The position numbers and the translations under genes are program-made. Shown here one piece after another: positions 31,695 to 39,097 of a stretch of DNA of 64,000 nucleotides (position 1 is its first letter; every line of letters starts with the position of its first letter). Under the pieces are notes generated by a model. It did not search any database. It saw only the letters and a list, made by a program, of their open reading frames with translations, and was not told the DNA's origin. The stretch covers positions 372,001 to 436,000 of the forward strand of contig NZ_OY781470.1 of NCBI RefSeq assembly GCF_963676935.1. Direction: 5' to 3'. This DNA comes from Halarcobacter sp. (GTDB lineage Bacteria; Campylobacterota; Campylobacteria; Campylobacterales; Arcobacteraceae).

Positions 31695-31835
31695 AATAAA
31701 CCTTTTTTGTTTTCTCTATTGTAGAATTTAAAAAAGAAAAATTCTTTATCTTTTTTGCTAAATTTTTTGTTCTTTTATGTTTAGATAATTGTTGATTAGT
31801 GCTCAAAATTTATTCTATTTTTGATAAACTATAGA

Positions 31836-32711
31836 ATGAAAAAAGAAACCTTAGAAAAAAGAGATAAGATTGCAAATGCAATAATGTACTATGTATACAC
31901 TCATATAGATACTCATATAGACCTTGAAGAGTTAAGTTATGATTTAGATATAAGTAAGTTTCATATGCATAGAGTATTCAAAGAAGCTTTTGGAAAAAAT
32001 ATTTATGAAAGTATTAAATCTATTAGATTGCAAAAAGCTGCAAATTTACTTTTAACAAATAGATATTCAACTATCTCAAATATTGCAAATCTTTGTGGGT
32101 ATAGTTCCCATTCATCTTTTATTAAAGCCTTTAATAAAAGATTTGAGATGTCTCCAAAACAATGGAGAAAAGGTGGTTATAAAAGCTATTCAAATGAGAT
32201 TATGAAGCAGTCAAAAAAAGCTATGAATTCTAAAGCTAACTTTTCAAGACTTGTTCCTACAATTGTAAAAATGCCAGAGATAAAAAGTTATTATATTAGA
32301 AATAAAGGTTATAACATAAATATTAGGCAGACTTGGCAAAAATTACAAACTTTGATTTTAAATAATGATATAAAAGAGTATAAACAAATTGCCCTGTTAC
32401 ATGATAATCCTGTAATTACACCATTAAATGAGTGCCAATATATTGCTTGTATTCAAACTGATGAAAAAGAGGAGATTTTATCTCAAAGAATCCCAAAATT
32501 TAAAATCTCTAGCGGAGTTTATGCAAAGTTTGATGTGCAAGGTCATCAAGGAGATATTTTAAAGTTTATGAATTGGGTTTACCATGAGTGGCTTTTAAAT
32601 AGTGAATATGAAACTACTACAAAACCTTCTTATATAATTTATCACAAAAACAATTTTTTAAGTGAAGATAATGAGTTTGATATGAGTTTTTATGTATCTA
32701 TAAATTATTAG
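31836..32711 (+). CDS. AraC-family regulator with GyrI-like effector domain (paralogue 2)
   Basis: A 291-residue regulator, closely related to the protein at 9316-10164. The AraC DNA-binding part includes ISKFHMHRVFKEAFGKNIYESI and IANLCGYSSHSSFIKAFNKRF, ending MSPKQWRKGGYK. The C-terminal GyrI-like domain starts near KMPEIKSYYIRNKGYN and contains GDILKFMNWVYHEWL. ATG 31836 is preferred; the TTG at 31821 has no ribosome site. ATG 31836 also lacks one, and a -10-like GATAAA lies about 13 bases before it, so the mRNA may have almost no leader. It is convergent with the acyltransferase gene. Confidence 0.87.
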   Translation: MKKETLEKRDKIANAIMYYVYTHIDTHIDLEELSYDLDISKFHMHRVFKEAFGKNIYESIKSIRLQKAANLLLTNRYSTISNIANLCGYSSHSSFIKAFNKRFEMSPKQWRKGGYKSYSNEIMKQSKKAMNSKANFSRLVPTIVKMPEIKSYYIRNKGYNINIRQTWQKLQTLILNNDIKEYKQIALLHDNPVITPLNECQYIACIQTDEKEEILSQRIPKFKISSGVYAKFDVQGHQGDILKFMNWVYHEWLLNSEYETTTKPSYIIYHKNNFLSEDNEFDMSFYVSINY

Positions 32712-32722
32712 TTTAAAAAGTA

Positions 32723-32750
32723 AAAGGGCATATTTATAAATATGCCCTTT
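32723..32750. terminator. Palindromic terminator between convergent genes
   Basis: A perfect 28-bp palindrome (14-bp arms starting AAAGGGCATATTTA) lies 11 bases after the AraC-type stop and seven bases after the end of the minus-strand acyltransferase gene. It should fold on either strand and end both transcripts. Confidence 0.75.
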
Positions 32751-32757
32751 ATATATT

Positions 32758-33471
32758 TTAACTTATTTTCAAAAATGCTTTTTTGAAAAATCTTGAAACA
32801 TTTACAGGATTCCAAGAAGAGATAACAAAAGGTTTATCAAGATGACCATATGAGTCTAAACTTCTTTCAATACTAAATCCACCAAGTTTTTCATAAAGTT
32901 TAAAGTGATCTTTTAGAAACACTGATGTTGATGCATCTAAACCATTTTGTGTTTTTAGATGATACATCCCTGCCATTAAATATTTGAAATCTAAACTTAA
33001 ACCTTTACTCTCTTTTTTTACCATAAGTCTTGAGATTTCACTCAATTTTGGAAATTTAATTCTTATATCAGATAAGTCTAACTTTTCCTCTATTGGTAAT
33101 TTTTTACTTGAATCAAAAATTAATCTACAAGTTGATGTAATCTCTTTATTATCTTCTGTATATATGATTGCTGAATTTTCATCATAAAAATCAAAATTCA
33201 TATTTGGAAGATAATTTGGAAACTCATTTTGATAACCTAAGTTTCCATATATTTCACTTCTTAATTGAAAAATTTTAACTAACTCTTCTGCACTATTCAC
33301 TTTTTTTAAGTTTGGATAGTTTGATTCAAAATTTATCTTTTTATTAAAAGATAAAATAATATCAATAAACTTTTCAAATAAAAAAGTTTTATCAAAATTC
33401 GTAAAATCGTTTTGTTGTTTATACAACTCCTCTAATCTTTGTACTGTTATGTTTTTGTTTACGTATACCAT
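32758..33471 (-). CDS. LuxI/FeeM-like GNAT acyltransferase (possible signal synthase)
   Basis: A 237-residue protein with the residue pattern of the autoinducer-synthase branch of the GNAT fold. R71 sits in LRSEIYG, acidic D94 and D97 in FDFYDENS, R116 in STCRLIF, and the E-x-x-R motif in EISRLMV (E145, R148). Relatives make N-acyl homoserine lactones or N-acyl amino acids from acyl-ACP. ATG 33471 follows a GGGG site by six bases. The gene is divergent, across about 124 bases, from a 7TM sensor kinase, the layout of a signal and receptor pair. The product is unknown, and ordinary N-acetyltransferase activity is possible. Confidence 0.66.
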   Translation of the reverse strand: MVYVNKNITVQRLEELYKQQNDFTNFDKTFLFEKFIDIILSFNKKINFESNYPNLKKVNSAEELVKIFQLRSEIYGNLGYQNEFPNYLPNMNFDFYDENSAIIYTEDNKEITSTCRLIFDSSKKLPIEEKLDLSDIRIKFPKLSEISRLMVKKESKGLSLDFKYLMAGMYHLKTQNGLDASTSVFLKDHFKLYEKLGGFSIERSLDSYGHLDKPFVISSWNPVNVSRFFKKAFLKIS

Positions 33472-33554
33472 TTTTTCCCCTTTATTTTGAAATGTTCCCA
33501 ATTATCAAAAAAAGGTGTCAAAAAAAAAGTCAAATCTTTTAATTTAAGCAGTGA

Positions 33555-33560
33555 TATAAT
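33555..33560 (+). promoter_or_regulatory. Probable -10 box for the 7TM kinase operon
   Basis: A TATAAT at 33555-33560 lies in the gap between the acyltransferase gene and the kinase gene, 35 bases before TTG 33596. Confidence 0.5.
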
Positions 33561-33595
33561 AAAATAATTACAATTTTTAGAAAGTGATTATAATT

Positions 33596-35431
33596 TTGCA
33601 TAAAAAAATAAAATATATTCTTATCTTTATATTAACTCTTTCATCCTCCATATTTGCAGATAAATTAATAGATATTAATAAAACAACTAATGATTTAATC
33701 TCTTCAAGTTATATTTATATAGATAATACGAATAATGAAACAATTGATACTATTAAAAATAAAGAGTTTAAAAGAATTGATATCTCAAAACCTAAATCTT
33801 TTGGGTATTCACCAAATTTTACAGTTTGGATAAAAATTGCATTTATAAATACATCAGATGAAGTTCAGAAAAAAATATTACAATATGAAAATTCTTTAAC
33901 AACTCATATTAATCTGTATTATGATGATAAAGTGATTCATGAAGGTTTATTTCAAATTAGTTCAGATAGAAAAACATTGGAACCAATATTTGAAATTAAT
34001 TTACGTGCAAAGGAACACAAAACATATTACTTTCAATTATCTTCTAAAATAACAACCTTGATTGTTGATTTAAAATTGTATGATTTAAAAAAATTTTATG
34101 AGCAAGAGGTTCGTAGACAAAATATTTTAGTCTTTTTCTTTACGGCTATGTTTATATTAGCAGCCTATAATTTAGTTATCTATTTTATTGTTAAGTCTGA
34201 AAGTTATCTTTTTTATGTATTTTATATTTTGGGTATCTCTTTACATCAGTTTTTTTATACCGGATATTCAACACTTTTTATTCAAGATCCCAGTACTGTT
34301 GAATTTATTATAAAAGCAGCTTCACTAATCGTTGCAATACCTATCTTTTTCTTTTCTATATTTACTATCTCATTTACTAATACAAAAGAGAATCATCCTA
34401 AATTGTATAAATATTTGAGGATTTATCTTTTCCTTTATCCTTTTATTATAGGTATAATTGTCTACTTACAAGAGCAAGGATGGATTAGAAATATTTTTTC
34501 AGCTATATTGCTTATGTTAGTATTATTTTTAACTTTATATAGTGTTGCTAAAAAAAATAGACAAAGTTACTTTTTACTGCTAGGTTGGATTATCTTTTTT
34601 GGCTCAATGATAAGTATGTATCTTGCAAGTGCAGGGTTATATAATATTTACAATGATATACCTTATTTAGTAGAATTATTTTTAGTTTTAGAAGGATTGA
34701 TTTTCTCAATTGCACTAGCTGATAGAATCAAAATATTAGAACTTGAAAAAAATAAAGTTCAACTTTCATTAATTAAATATCAAGAAAATGAAACTATAAG
34801 ATTAAAATCAATGGTAGATGAAAAAACTGAAAAATTACAATCAGCACTCCAAGACAAAGAGTTTTTACTTAAAGAGCTTAACCATAGAGTTAAAAATAAT
34901 ATGCAAACGATTATTTCTCTTATAAGATTACAAAAAGATAGTATAAAAGACCCTAAGATGTCAGAGATGCTTATTAGTATACAAAATAGATTAAATGCTA
35001 TGAGTGAAGTTCATCAATTATTATATAGTAGTAATGAAGATTTGTCTTTTATCAGCCCCACAGAATATTTTATTTCTATTGTAAATGGAATTAAAGAGAC
35101 AACATATAGTGAAGATATTATTGTAAAGTATGATATTAAATCTTATTTAAGAACAGAAGAGGTTCTTTATTGTGGTCTTATAATAAATGAATTGGTTACA
35201 AATTGTATTAAACATGCTTTTTCTTTAGATGAAGGTCAAATATTTATTAAATTTTATGAAGATAAAGATAAAAAAATATTAGAAGTTATAGATAATGGAA
35301 TAGGCTTTCCTAAGTATGCAAAAGAATCTTTTGGGATGGATTTAATTCGTTCATTAATTGAAATTTACTTAAAAGGTAATATTGAAATCAAAAATAAAAA
35401 TGGTACTCATATAACAATAACCTGGAATTAA
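33596..35431 (+). CDS. 7TM-DISM sensor histidine kinase (HisKA_2 type)
   Basis: A membrane kinase of about 611 residues. After a signal segment ending SSIFA comes a periplasmic 7TMR-DISMED2-like domain (about 25-170, FGYSPNFTVWIKIAFIN). Seven hydrophobic segments follow (about 175-385), then a short coiled coil. The HisKA_2 dimerisation domain has the phosphorylation motif KELNHRVKNNMQ, and the ATPase domain has NELVTNCIKHAF and VIDNGIGFP. DISM domains bind carbohydrate-like or other small ligands. Two starts are possible: GTG 33584 or TTG 33596. I prefer TTG because an AGAAAG site lies before it and the signal peptide is then standard. It is co-transcribed with the regulator at 35433. Confidence 0.86.
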   Translation: MHKKIKYILIFILTLSSSIFADKLIDINKTTNDLISSSYIYIDNTNNETIDTIKNKEFKRIDISKPKSFGYSPNFTVWIKIAFINTSDEVQKKILQYENSLTTHINLYYDDKVIHEGLFQISSDRKTLEPIFEINLRAKEHKTYYFQLSSKITTLIVDLKLYDLKKFYEQEVRRQNILVFFFTAMFILAAYNLVIYFIVKSESYLFYVFYILGISLHQFFYTGYSTLFIQDPSTVEFIIKAASLIVAIPIFFFSIFTISFTNTKENHPKLYKYLRIYLFLYPFIIGIIVYLQEQGWIRNIFSAILLMLVLFLTLYSVAKKNRQSYFLLLGWIIFFGSMISMYLASAGLYNIYNDIPYLVELFLVLEGLIFSIALADRIKILELEKNKVQLSLIKYQENETIRLKSMVDEKTEKLQSALQDKEFLLKELNHRVKNNMQTIISLIRLQKDSIKDPKMSEMLISIQNRLNAMSEVHQLLYSSNEDLSFISPTEYFISIVNGIKETTYSEDIIVKYDIKSYLRTEEVLYCGLIINELVTNCIKHAFSLDEGQIFIKFYEDKDKKILEVIDNGIGFPKYAKESFGMDLIRSLIEIYLKGNIEIKNKNGTHITITWN

Positions 35432-35432
35432 A

Positions 35433-36128
35433 ATGAACAAAAAGTATAAAATACTAATAGTTGAAGACCAAGCGATTACAGCAATGGAGATAAAACATAT
35501 CGTTTTAGGATTGGGACTAGATGTTGTAGGAATCGCTAAATCAAACCAAGAAGCAGTTGAAAAGTTTGAAGAGAATCTACCTGATATTGTTATTATGGAT
35601 ATAAACTTAGAAGGTGATAGAGATGGAATATCAACGGTAAAAGATATCTATGAAATAAGTAAAACTAGTGTAATTTATCTTACAGCTTTTAATGATGATA
35701 AAACAATTGATAGAGCCATTGAAACTTATCCCTTAGCTTATGAAATAAAACCGTTTAATAAAGCAAGTTTACAATCAACTATAAAAATAGTAATGACTAA
35801 ATTAAATAAAGATATTACTGAAAGACCTATTTCAAATATTGATTTAGGATATGGGTATTCTTTTAATCAAGATACAAAAAAGTTATATTTTAATAGTACT
35901 TTTATAAAATTAGGACATCAAGAAACAGAACTTTTATCTATGTTAATTAAGTCAAAGGGCCAAATTGTTTCGTATAAACAAATAGAGAATGAAATATGGG
36001 AGGGCAATGTTATCTCAGATAGTTCAATAAGAACACTTATTTGGAGATTAAGAACTAAGTTTGAATATAAAATTATTGAAACAGTTCCATATGAAGGGAT
36101 TAAATTAGTTATAAATACACATAAGTAA
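35433..36128 (+). CDS. Response regulator, receiver plus winged helix
   Basis: A 231-residue regulator with one base between it and the kinase stop. The receiver domain has E11-D12, the phospho-acceptor D56 (IVIMDINLEG) and K106 (EIKPF). The C-terminal half is OmpR/PhoB-like, with LGHQETELLSMLIKSKGQIVSYKQIENEIW and SSIRTLIWRLRTKF. It is therefore a DNA-binding transcription factor and the likely partner of the 7TM kinase. It is clearly paralogous to the regulator at 36929-37684, which lies opposite on the other strand. Confidence 0.9.
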   Translation: MNKKYKILIVEDQAITAMEIKHIVLGLGLDVVGIAKSNQEAVEKFEENLPDIVIMDINLEGDRDGISTVKDIYEISKTSVIYLTAFNDDKTIDRAIETYPLAYEIKPFNKASLQSTIKIVMTKLNKDITERPISNIDLGYGYSFNQDTKKLYFNSTFIKLGHQETELLSMLIKSKGQIVSYKQIENEIWEGNVISDSSIRTLIWRLRTKFEYKIIETVPYEGIKLVINTHK

Positions 36129-36133
36129 TCTAA

Positions 36134-36552
36134 TTAAATATTTAAAAAAAATCTTTCTTTCTTTTTGGTGATAGCATTATTTCTTTTATAAAAAGTTATG
36201 GCTCTTTCATTTTGTGTTGGTGTTTGCCATTGTATAAGATTACACTCTAATTTTTTAGCCTCTTTTTTTATTTTTTCAAGAAGTTCTTTTCCTAATCCCA
36301 TTGATCTATATTTTTCATCAATAAAAATACAATCTAGATATAAATAAAATTCTGCATCTCATGTTGAAAACTGTTTCATATATATTGCATAACCAATTAA
36401 TTTATTTTCATATTGAACTACTAAACAGTATAAAGTGGGTACAGTTTGAAATAGATGTTTCTCTAAATTTTCTTTTTGATTTAAAAGTATAAAATCTGAT
36501 TTTTTATATAGTGTATGTTTCTCACATAAAATTAATAGTTGGTCTATTTCAT
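36134..36552 (-). pseudogene. Broken GNAT acetyltransferase gene
   Basis: Read on the minus strand, a GNAT protein of about 138 residues is recognisable from FLDCIFIDEKYRSMGLGKELL-like and NERAITFYKRNNA-like segments (acetyl-CoA loop and C-terminal helix). It has two lesions. The only ATG with a ribosome site (36550-36552, after AGGAG) is one base out of frame with the rest. An in-frame TGA at 36359-36361 stands where a tryptophan codon would fit. I see no way to make a full-length product, so it is a dead gene, though recently enough that the sequence is readable. Confidence 0.85.
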
Positions 36553-36748
36553 TTTTTCTCCTTCAATCCCTTTCATTGAAGTATTATAAGCAATTCCATC
36601 ACAATATGTTACATATAAATTTGATTTATAAATCTATTGTAGTTTGTTCATTCATAGTCCTATGTGGAATATTAATAGAATTTGGAATATGAGAAATCTT
36701 ATATACTTCGTTTAATCTAACATCAATAACCATAATTTTTATTACATT
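36544..36748 (-). pseudogene. Rhodanese-domain gene fragment with frameshift
   Basis: Two minus-strand frames together spell part of a rhodanese domain. First comes VIKIMVIDVRLNEVYKISHI followed by PNSINIPHRTMNEQTT, ending at a TAA near 36629. After a frame change comes LYVTYCDGIAYNTSMKG, which includes the active-site cysteine loop. The N-terminus and the C-terminal third are missing, and the frame runs into the start region of the GNAT pseudogene. It is a decayed fragment with no complete reading frame. Confidence 0.8.
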
Positions 36749-36872
36749 TGAAATTGAAGGAAATAATGATATTTTAATGTTTATTAAATGGGTTTATTAT
36801 GAGTGGTTACCAAATAGTGGATATGAAAAAATCACTATACTTACTTATATTATATATGATGATTATACTTTT
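36744..36872 (+). pseudogene. Remnant of a third AraC/GyrI-type regulator (C-terminal piece)
   Basis: The plus strand reads FEIEGNNDILMFIKWVYYEW then LPNSGYEKITILTYIIYDDY. This aligns with FDVQGHQGDILKFMNWVYHEW and the following residues in the protein at 31836-32711, and with the same part of 9316-10164. Only about 43 codons of the effector domain remain, with no DNA-binding part. It abuts the rhodanese fragment head to head. The missing parts point to internal deletion. Confidence 0.82.
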
Positions 36873-36928
36873 AGTAAAATTTATATATTCCTGTTCAAGC
36901 TATATAATTTTAAACAGTATTTATATTG

Positions 36929-37684
36929 TTAAACTGCCTTTGTTTCTATTTTATATCCCATTTTAGAGTGACTGCTTATTAAGTTTTTATTAACTTTTTG
37001 TCTTAATCTAAATAAAACTCCTCTTAATGCACCTTCTCCAACCAATTCTCCATCATATAAAAAATCTTCAATAGCCTCATTTGCAACAATACAATTTTCA
37101 TTTTTTATTAGGATTTCAAAAAGTTTTATCTCTTTTTGATTTAGATTTATCTCTTTATCTTCTAAAAACAATTTTCTCAAATCTTTATCAAAAATATAAC
37201 CAAACTTTAGTGTTTTAAATCTTTTCTGTGAATTTTCACTATTCTCTTTTATTTTTTCAAGTGCTACATAATGTTTTTTACTATCTTCAAGTTTTATAGT
37301 TAATTCTTTTTTATCTGAAAATTTTTTTAAGGCTAATTCTACTGTTGCTTTTAATTCTGCATCTTTAAAAGGTTTAATTATATATCCATAAGGTTCATTT
37401 TTAATTGCTCGCTCAATTGTTGTATATTTATCATTTGCTGTTAAAAAAACAAAAGGTATATCATATCTTTTTATAATCTCTTCACTTAGTGAAATCCCAT
37501 CATCACCGTTTTTTAAAGTAATATCTAAAAGGGCTAAATCACAGCTGTTTTCTTCCAACAGTTTTAAAGCTTTTTTTATATTTGTTGCAACTCCAATAAC
37601 ATTGAATCCAAACTCTAAAAGGGCTTCTTTTATATCCATTGCAGTTACTATTTCATCTTCAACAACTAATATATTTTTTTTCAT
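36929..37684 (-). CDS. Response regulator, receiver plus winged helix (paralogue)
   Basis: A 251-residue regulator with receiver residues E9-D10, phospho-acceptor D54 (LALLDITLKNG) and K104 (IIKPF). A linker of about 30 charged residues precedes a winged-helix part (LNQKEIKLFEILIKNENCIVAN, GALRGVLFRLRQKV). The start codon overlaps the stop of the kinase gene (TAATG), so it is the coupled partner of that kinase. It is similar in sequence and layout to the regulator at 35433-36128. Its 3' end reaches the pseudogene island. Confidence 0.9.
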   Translation of the reverse strand: MKKNILVVEDEIVTAMDIKEALLEFGFNVIGVATNIKKALKLLEENSCDLALLDITLKNGDDGISLSEEIIKRYDIPFVFLTANDKYTTIERAIKNEPYGYIIKPFKDAELKATVELALKKFSDKKELTIKLEDSKKHYVALEKIKENSENSQKRFKTLKFGYIFDKDLRKLFLEDKEINLNQKEIKLFEILIKNENCIVANEAIEDFLYDGELVGEGALRGVLFRLRQKVNKNLISSHSKMGYKIETKAV

Positions 37685-38964
37685 TAATCCTCTTCTTCTG
37701 ATATTTCATATGAAATGCTACATGAAAGTCCATTTTCATTTATAATTTCTAATTCACCATTAAGTTGAAATTCGACAATTGACTCTATAAGTTGCCAACC
37801 TAAAGAGTTATTATTTTTTAATTTTTGTATATTATATCCAATACCATTATCTTTTACCCCAAATAAAATTTGCTTATTATTTTGATAGATAAAAATATCA
37901 ATATTACCATTGTTCCTATCTTTAAATGCATGTTTAATACTATTTAAAAGTAGTTCATGAATCACTAATGCTACAAGTACTGAATTATTTATAGATAAGT
38001 TAATATTCTCTTTCACAGATATATTTATATTTAAAGTATTTTTTAAATTATAAATATCTTTAATAGCAAAAGTTAGTTTTTCTAAATATTGTTTCATATT
38101 TATAAATCTTAAATCATTATCTTGGTAGATTATTTCATGAACAAGTGCAATTGCATAAATTCTACTTCTTGTTTTATCTAATTGAGTATTAATTACATCA
38201 TTTTTTTCTCTTCTTTTTTGCATAGAAAGTAAAGATGATAAAACTTGTAAATTGTTTTTAACTCTATGATGAATCTCTTTTATTAAAATCTCTTTTTCCT
38301 CTAAAGAACTTTTTATTATTTGTTCTTTTTTCTTTTGTTCTGTAATATCCCTTGCAAAAGCACAAATAAACTCTTCTTCCCCATTTGCAGAAAAATAATT
38401 TGCAGCTATTAAACAAGGAAATGATTTCCCATCTTTTGTTGTTAGTTCTGATTCAAAGTAGTTAAATTGCTTTTTCTTTTGTATAATAATTTTTTCAACT
38501 TCATGGAATTTTTTATCAATTTTTATGATATGCTCATTTAGTAACTCTTCTTTTGTATATCCCAAAACTTTACATAATCTATTATTTACATATACAATTT
38601 TCCCATCAAATTTAAACCAATAGATAGCATCTGCTGTATTATCAAGTACAAAATTAATAAGTTTAAGATTTTCACTCTCTTTTTTTTGAAAAAGTATTAA
38701 CTTCTCTTTTGCCTCTTTTTCTATTTTTGCAATACTTCTTAAAAAGAAATATAAAAAAACACTTGTAACAATAAAAAAAGTTATTCCTATAAATAAAGGT
38801 AGTTTTGTATCCTGATTATTATCTGTATGTTGAATAATAAACATTGAAACTTTATTTACAAGAACAATTCCAATAATTCCAATAATTAAAAATGTAAATG
38901 AGTATAGTTTAGCTTTTTTTTCGTTAGGTATCTTCGCAATTACTTTTAAAATGTCATTAAACAT
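37684..38964 (-). CDS. Membrane PAS-containing sensor histidine kinase (HisKA_2 type)
   Basis: A 426-residue kinase with two N-terminal membrane segments (about 17-37 and 48-70) joined by a short loop, so it has little periplasmic sensor. A PAS domain (about 100-215, NTADAIYWFKFDGKIVYVNNRL) is followed by HisKA_2 with KEIHHRVKNNLQVLSSLLSMQ and an ATPase domain with HELLLNSIKHAF and GVKDNGIGYN. ATG 38964 is chosen because a GAGGA site lies five bases upstream; the frame is open slightly further. It sits in one operon with the regulator at 36929. Confidence 0.9.
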   Translation of the reverse strand: MFNDILKVIAKIPNEKKAKLYSFTFLIIGIIGIVLVNKVSMFIIQHTDNNQDTKLPLFIGITFFIVTSVFLYFFLRSIAKIEKEAKEKLILFQKKESENLKLINFVLDNTADAIYWFKFDGKIVYVNNRLCKVLGYTKEELLNEHIIKIDKKFHEVEKIIIQKKKQFNYFESELTTKDGKSFPCLIAANYFSANGEEEFICAFARDITEQKKKEQIIKSSLEEKEILIKEIHHRVKNNLQVLSSLLSMQKRREKNDVINTQLDKTRSRIYAIALVHEIIYQDNDLRFINMKQYLEKLTFAIKDIYNLKNTLNINISVKENINLSINNSVLVALVIHELLLNSIKHAFKDRNNGNIDIFIYQNNKQILFGVKDNGIGYNIQKLKNNNSLGWQLIESIVEFQLNGELEIINENGLSCSISYEISEEED

Positions 38965-39097
38965 TGTTTCCTCAATATTATTATTCCAGAAAATCATTAT
39001 ATACTTTTTTTATTTAGATACTAAAAAAACATATGAGATTTTTTTGAGATTTTTTTTATCTACAATTCTTTTAAGATAAGTATGAAAGGAGAAAAAA

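Follow-up and report, generated by a model that had tools for sequence, protein, structure and literature searches.

The 64,000-nucleotide stretch of Halarcobacter sp. DNA analysed here (GCF_963676935.1, contig NZ_OY781470.1, positions 372,001 to 436,000 of the forward strand; hereafter the window) carries a gene for a FeeM-like N-acyltransferase that lies back to back with genes for a membrane histidine kinase and a response regulator. The acyltransferase gene, called feeM below, occupies 32758–33471 on the minus strand and encodes 237 residues, for which both Pfam and an AlphaFold model point to the autoinducer-synthase fold. On the plus strand, 33584–35431 encodes a 615-residue 7TM-DISM histidine kinase with Pfam matches to 7TMR-DISMED2, 7TMR-DISM_7TM, HisKA_2 and HATPase_c, and 35433–36128 encodes an OmpR/PhoB-type response regulator composed of a receiver domain and a winged helix (Pfam Response_reg and Trans_reg_C). 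In the kinase, the extracytoplasmic DISMED2 domain covers residues 43–166 (33710–34081), the seven-transmembrane bundle covers residues 181–381 (34124–34726; Pfam and model), and the HisKA_2 segment, with H434 in an HRVKNN motif, forms a core with HATPase_c at 34874–35425. Pfam finds no receiver domain in this kinase, which is non-hybrid and adjoins the OmpR-type regulator. A preliminary description of this DNA, made from its letters, had listed the same three open reading frames at these coordinates and had named a DISMED2-like and seven-transmembrane kinase followed by a winged-helix regulator; all of these parts match Pfam above the cut-offs. The divergent layout that it described also stands, with the correction that the gap, given there as about 124 bases, is 112 bp when counted from the listed GTG start.

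A FeeM-family enzyme

The 237-residue protein, read from the ATG at 33471, matches the Pfam FeeM family PF21926 with 57.6 bits (cut-off 27; 1.7e-15), and by sequence it is a FeeM-family acyltransferase. It contains the R, D, D, R, E, R set of LuxI-type synthases, which the preliminary description had assigned correctly: R71, D94, D97, R116 and E145 are found in all 47 homologues, and R148 is Arg in 45 and Lys in two. The spacing of these residues (23, 3, 19, 29, 3) is close to that of the corresponding residues of EsaI, which we take to be 21, 3, 20, 29, 3. An AlphaFold2 model was built with the 47 homologues (predicted local distance difference test score 88.2, predicted template modelling score 0.83). 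When this model was searched against the PDB with Foldseek, the top match was FeeM (2g0b), with LasI, RpaI and BjaI next. FeeM 2g0b is also the top match by VIA-align, with Z 18.0 over 170 residues, followed by RpaI (17.4), BjaI (16.9), MesI (16.4), LasI (16.3) and TofI (15.9). The acyl-homoserine lactone (AHL) synthases span Z 15.3–17.4 and rank above nearly all plain GNATs, the best of which is SACOL1063 at 15.6. The AHL synthases align through residues 236–237 of the enzyme; the plain GNAT rows mostly stop at about 224. This whole-fold comparison, a check proposed in the preliminary description, indicates that the modelled enzyme most resembles FeeM and the AHL synthases.

The relation to each of these groups has its limits. 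FeeM itself, an N-acyl amino acid synthase from environmental DNA, belongs to the same family and has the closest fold, and 2g0b is the sole match with a meaningful E-value when the FeeM profile is compared with solved structures. Unlike in that case, the gene described here is tied to a two-component system that has a promoter box of its own, and the two enzymes share about 15% identity. The LuxI, LasI, BjaI and RpaI synthases share the fold and the residue set with near-equal spacing. Unlike them, our enzyme gives no match to the LuxI profile PF00765 (Autoind_synth) at E ≤ 1, has no adjoining LuxR partner, and has a tyrosine (Y80 in 46 of 47 homologues) near the position of LuxI W34 on the S-adenosylmethionine side, a correspondence made by spacing only. 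Because of the missing profile match and this tyrosine, S-adenosylmethionine is not to be assumed as a substrate. Assignment to the PEP-CTERM/exosortase acyltransferases (TIGR03694) was rejected, with 31.7 bits against an NCBIfam cut-off of 111.95. Weak relatives of 27–30% identity (L042, L115, L118) were set aside as a different group; they are found without the kinase, and L042 is of the PF13444 type and lies beside a TonB receptor.

Linkage and co-divergence of feeM and the kinase

In a first survey, all 19 close homologues of the enzyme were found beside a full or partial kinase and regulator, with outer neighbours that vary. Across all collections, the kinase lies within three genes for 46 of 49 distinct enzyme sequences, in varied gene orders; these 46 include four loci whose kinase is either split or truncated at the edge of a contig. 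Two of the three loci without an adjoining kinase have a kinase orthologue elsewhere in the genome, and the third, a metagenome-assembled genome, has a weak match only. A survey of 397 genomes of the phylum found a kinase orthologue in 24 of the 24 genomes with a strong enzyme match versus 6 of the 373 others (Fisher p 3e-33, uncorrected for phylogeny and hence for shared descent). The two genes, whose neighbourhood the preliminary description had proposed to survey, are kept together and co-occur, and the neighbourhood and phylum surveys rule out chance linkage. Named carriers of the module include Arcobacter, Aliarcobacter, Malaciobacter, Sulfurimonas, Sulfuricurvum, Sulfurospirillum and Sulfurovum records, and two genomes of the window's own genus (G008, G013) have neither enzyme nor kinase. 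The usual order in relatives is kinase, regulator, feeM, often with a second response regulator after them; the divergent order belongs to the window, its two closest relatives and G405, where feeM is broken. In Malaciobacter and Sulfurospirillum, SbcCD adjoins feeM and was considered as a partner, but is taken as an ordinary neighbour. In two genomes of two contigs each, the module is found on the smaller, second contig (G314:C2, 101 kb; G353:C2, 140 kb), possibly a plasmid.

In a tree, the feeM-linked kinases and the solo kinases stand together apart from the 12 other 7TM-DISM kinases tested (Shimodaira–Hasegawa-like approximate likelihood ratio support 97). The solo kinases are nested among the linked ones, which suggests that feeM has been lost repeatedly from kinase loci; some basal solo kinases may predate the recruitment of feeM. 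At four loci of one genus in which feeM is often absent (L181, L183, L327, L330), the kinase-regulator pair and its boxes lie beside arrays of related lipoprotein genes.

If the enzyme's product is the kinase ligand, FeeM is expected to co-diverge with the input half of the kinase. Distance correlations among 30 non-redundant loci agree with this expectation. FeeM correlates best with the seven-transmembrane part (r 0.75; partial r 0.52 after removal of the kinase core and response regulator, permutation p 0.0005), then with DISMED2 (0.36), and its correlation with the kinase core (−0.01) or the response regulator (−0.02) is about zero. The correlation with the seven-transmembrane part persists in 70% subsamples and when the window clade is left out. 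We regard it as support, not proof, because the distances are not independent.

A tandem promoter box and its target genes

Between feeM and the kinase gene lies a tandem direct repeat, TTTGAC-N6-TTTGAC (33517–33534, minus strand), 45 bp before the ATG of feeM and 49 bp away from where the kinase gene starts, which we propose as the site of the regulator. It is the sole such site in the window. Of 50 loci, 36 have a box of this kind upstream of feeM, as a direct repeat of 12-bp period with the consensus TGTGACGCAAACTGTGACG, and in 35 of these 36 it lies 34–43 bp from the ATG. The form is TGTGAC-N6-TGTGAC in relatives and TTTGAC in the window clade. A −10-like sequence, recognized by eye, follows about 10 bp downstream, as in PhoB-type activated promoters. 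Many relatives also have a reverse-oriented box upstream of the kinase, and boxes occur at the promoters of the second response regulator. In a 60-genome sample, 96 copies of TGTGAC-N6-TGTGAC were counted in the 19 genomes with feeM and 9 in the remaining 41 (p 3e-11). At the box-centred loci, 93 of 100 boxes are intergenic versus 15% of random positions, and 43 of 100 lie 30–60 bp before a start codon versus 1.2% of random positions. Nearly all relatives have YRLR in the recognition helix of the regulator; the window clade, with its TTTGAC box at feeM, has WRLR. This joint shift of helix and box is a single event. Taken together, the linkage, the shared promoter box and the co-divergence of FeeM with the kinase input half support the preliminary proposal that synthase, kinase and regulator work together.

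Two further observations concern the feeM promoter region. In the clade of L104 and L105, the recognition helix is altered to LMHRTTSK, and an 11-bp-period box, TGTGAC-N5-TGTGAC, precedes feeM. At most relative loci (e.g. L031, L036, L046, L068, L108), the Shine-Dalgarno AGGA is paired in a hairpin within the last 40 nt before the feeM ATG, in very different sequences and with z down to −6.8, which suggests translational control of feeM in these relatives. The hairpin is absent in the window clade and was rejected as part of the window locus.

In relatives, the genes preceded by the box include anti-phage defence genes in many genomes. Listed by genome, the box-preceded genes are SIR2-TPR, TIR, AbiZ-like, HetE-N and Tle1-like phospholipase genes in G024; SIR2-HerA and a Roc-COR protein in G030, the former less sure because the box is 387 bp before its start; IetA with a subtilase (IetAS) and a DUF4062 gene in G012; an Old-like ATPase and, by eye, sbcD in G004; in G002 a type II methylase, an operon that includes a HamB-like helicase of the Hachiman type, a PtuA/AriA-like ATPase, SIR2-HerA and sbcD; HamA in G423; and GmrSD in G405. 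HamA and SIR2 models were matched again in an independent second target set. The five HamA genes in 32 feeM genomes include one with the box and one with a near-box, and two defence-like SIR2 genes have it at the standard distance; none of the conserved SIR2-like genes of 275–300 residues carries it. From these counts, defence genes are prominent among the targets but are neither the sole targets nor always included.

In the window's own genome there are five relaxed boxes, one of them at feeM. The second precedes sbcD-sbcC, followed by genes for an OLD-like ATPase, a kinase-like protein and DUF2779-like proteins, assigned partly by eye. The third is 70 bp before a PsiD-like decarboxylase gene (PDB PsiD-like, 1.6e-76; G000:C1:2860722, L364:16290-17739), after which cas6 (by Pfam), cas3, cas1, other cas-like genes and then a large CRISPR array follow on the same strand. 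No terminator was found between the PsiD-like gene and the downstream cas genes, and the cas7-like protein had no PDB match. In G010, a different cas set follows the same box and decarboxylase. In G011 and G006, the decarboxylase has a box or one-mismatch box and no cas genes were seen beside it, so the decarboxylase would be the primary target, with control of cas genes by read-through at best.

The PsiD-like decarboxylase, an amino-acid decarboxylase, was seen with a box or one-mismatch box in four genomes of the genus (L364, L374, L372, L373 and L189 are listed), and in G426 a PsiD-like gene, recognized by eye, is found some 2 kb away from a solo kinase. The decarboxylase might provide an amine for FeeM; as a general amine source it was rejected, being present in only 4 of the 19 genomes with feeM in the 60-genome sample, and it is a species-specific lead at most. 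Loci L364 and L365, from two close relatives, have different cas sets at the same chromosomal site, with arrays that share the repeat ATTTCAATACATCATATGTTTTGGTTCAAG.

Proposed circuit and alternative explanations

We consider it moderately probable that the module is a self-contained acyl signalling circuit of the LuxM/LuxN kind with a partly immune regulon, the latter going beyond the claims of the preliminary description. The FeeM-like enzyme would join a fatty-acyl group, probably from acyl-acyl carrier protein, to an amine or amino acid. The product, a diffusible acyl compound, would leave the cell and be sensed at the membrane by the seven-transmembrane and DISMED2 half of the kinase, which would phosphorylate the adjoining OmpR-type regulator. 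We infer that this regulator binds the tandem box of 12-bp period, some 10 bp before the −10 element, and activates, rather than represses, the genes behind it. Activation of feeM would constitute positive feedback; activation of other, species-specific genes, prominently those of anti-phage defence, would raise immunity with the signal. The findings suggest that Arcobacter-like bacteria switch on immunity via chemical communication. A more specific version is that FeeM synthase, kinase and OmpR regulator form a dedicated immune switch of Campylobacterota whose main output is anti-phage immunity, which new defence systems (Hachiman, SIR2-HerA, IetAS, CRISPR-Cas and others) join by gaining the promoter box; we put this forward tentatively, as possible rather than probable.

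Several observations weigh against the signalling circuit or its immune output. Some surveyed genomes that lack feeM retain the kinase and regulator, and in G405 (L109/L192) feeM is broken by internal stops with the kinase, regulator and nine boxes retained; since the pair survives without an intact feeM, the kinase may also sense something else. The DISMED2 model resembles the RetS domain and carbohydrate-binding folds. FeeM-family enzymes elsewhere also make surfactants, antibiotics and membrane lipids. At about 14 of 50 loci, feeM has a weak box or none. The window's own genome has only five relaxed boxes, against about one expected from base composition (an estimate), and two of the five have no evident target. 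Outside defence, the box precedes many other genes, among them those for lipoproteins, pseudopilins and unknown proteins, and it is lacking at most defence-like SIR2 genes. Moreover, 48 random genes near the module gave matches to 8 PADLOC families, several of them generic, so that the size of the defence enrichment is imprecise; the family counts of 243 versus 8 were rejected as its measure because deep families have many models, which overstates it, and named systems are used instead.

The main rival to a signalling circuit makes feeM an output: the kinase would sense some cue from the envelope, from glycans or from infection, and the regulator would turn on feeM along with defence and antibacterial genes, the N-acyl product being a weapon, surfactant or membrane lipid. 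The box before feeM, which makes feeM a target like the others, fits this account, as do the survival of kinase and regulator without feeM, the likeness of the DISMED2 model to RetS and carbohydrate-binding modules, and the Tle1-like phospholipase among the targets. We nevertheless judge it less likely, because feeM is the sole target shared by nearly all circuit genomes and is never found without the kinase in the phylum survey, and because its divergence follows the kinase input half and not the regulator, which would be unexpected of an output gene. It is also conceivable that the box serves another regulator and that the module's own regulator has a different site, given that these genomes encode more OmpR-like regulators and that many loci have a second one beside feeM. 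This seems improbable to us: the box tracks the presence of the module across genomes, stands at the feeM, kinase and second-regulator promoters, and changes from TGTGAC to TTTGAC at feeM in the clade where the helix changes from YRLR to WRLR. Least credible, and very improbable in our view, is an ordinary GNAT that would acetylate a small metabolite or a protein (the kinase or regulator, for instance) and make no acyl-chain product. The Z of SACOL1063 does fall inside the AHL synthase range, but the family match is specifically to FeeM, the best fold match is FeeM, the AHL synthases align to the C-terminal end of the enzyme where plain GNATs mostly fall short, and the autoinducer-synthase residues are invariant.

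As a signalling circuit, the module would have precedents in the Vibrio pairs LuxM/LuxN and CqsA/CqsS, in which the synthase gene is linked to that of a multi-pass membrane histidine kinase sensing the synthase product, much as feeM is kept beside a membrane kinase gene (46/49 loci; 24/24 genomes). It differs from them in the type of synthase, in the non-hybrid HisKA_2 kinase with DISMED2, and in a direct OmpR-type regulator in place of the LuxU/LuxO relay. The DISMED2 and seven-transmembrane input is shared with the 7TMR-DISM sensors RetS and LadS, and the modelled DISMED2 domain is nearest the RetS periplasmic domain 3jyb; unlike in those sensors, the kinase core is of a different kind. To the best of our knowledge, no acyl synthase partner is known for sensors of the RetS/LadS type. 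In our literature searches, no acyl-based quorum circuit was found described for Campylobacterota. Quorum control of CRISPR-Cas and of the cyclic-oligonucleotide-based antiphage signaling system (CBASS) is known in Serratia, Pseudomonas and Vibrio (PMC12988980, PMC10653837), and here too density signalling would raise anti-phage immunity; unlike those general quorum systems, one box precedes different defence systems in different Campylobacterota species. Because the circuit has a defined DNA box, the genes of its regulon can be read off any genome sequence. Such a switch would link chemical signalling to many defence systems and would make density-controlled immunity directly testable, and the circuit would offer a natural test system for small-molecule recognition by 7TM-DISM kinases, which are common and mostly without known ligands.

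The surroundings of the module in the window show some further features. A bidirectional terminator-like hairpin (32723–32750) lies in the interval between feeM and a convergent araC-type gene. On the other side, a stretch of about 0.8 kb (36129–36928) that G010 lacks contains a broken GNAT-like frame, along with a remnant similar to the C-terminal end of the AraC/GyrI-like protein encoded at 31821–32711. It is followed at 36929–38997 by a second pair beside the module, a HisKA_2 kinase of the PAS type and a winged-helix regulator, which is kept in G010.

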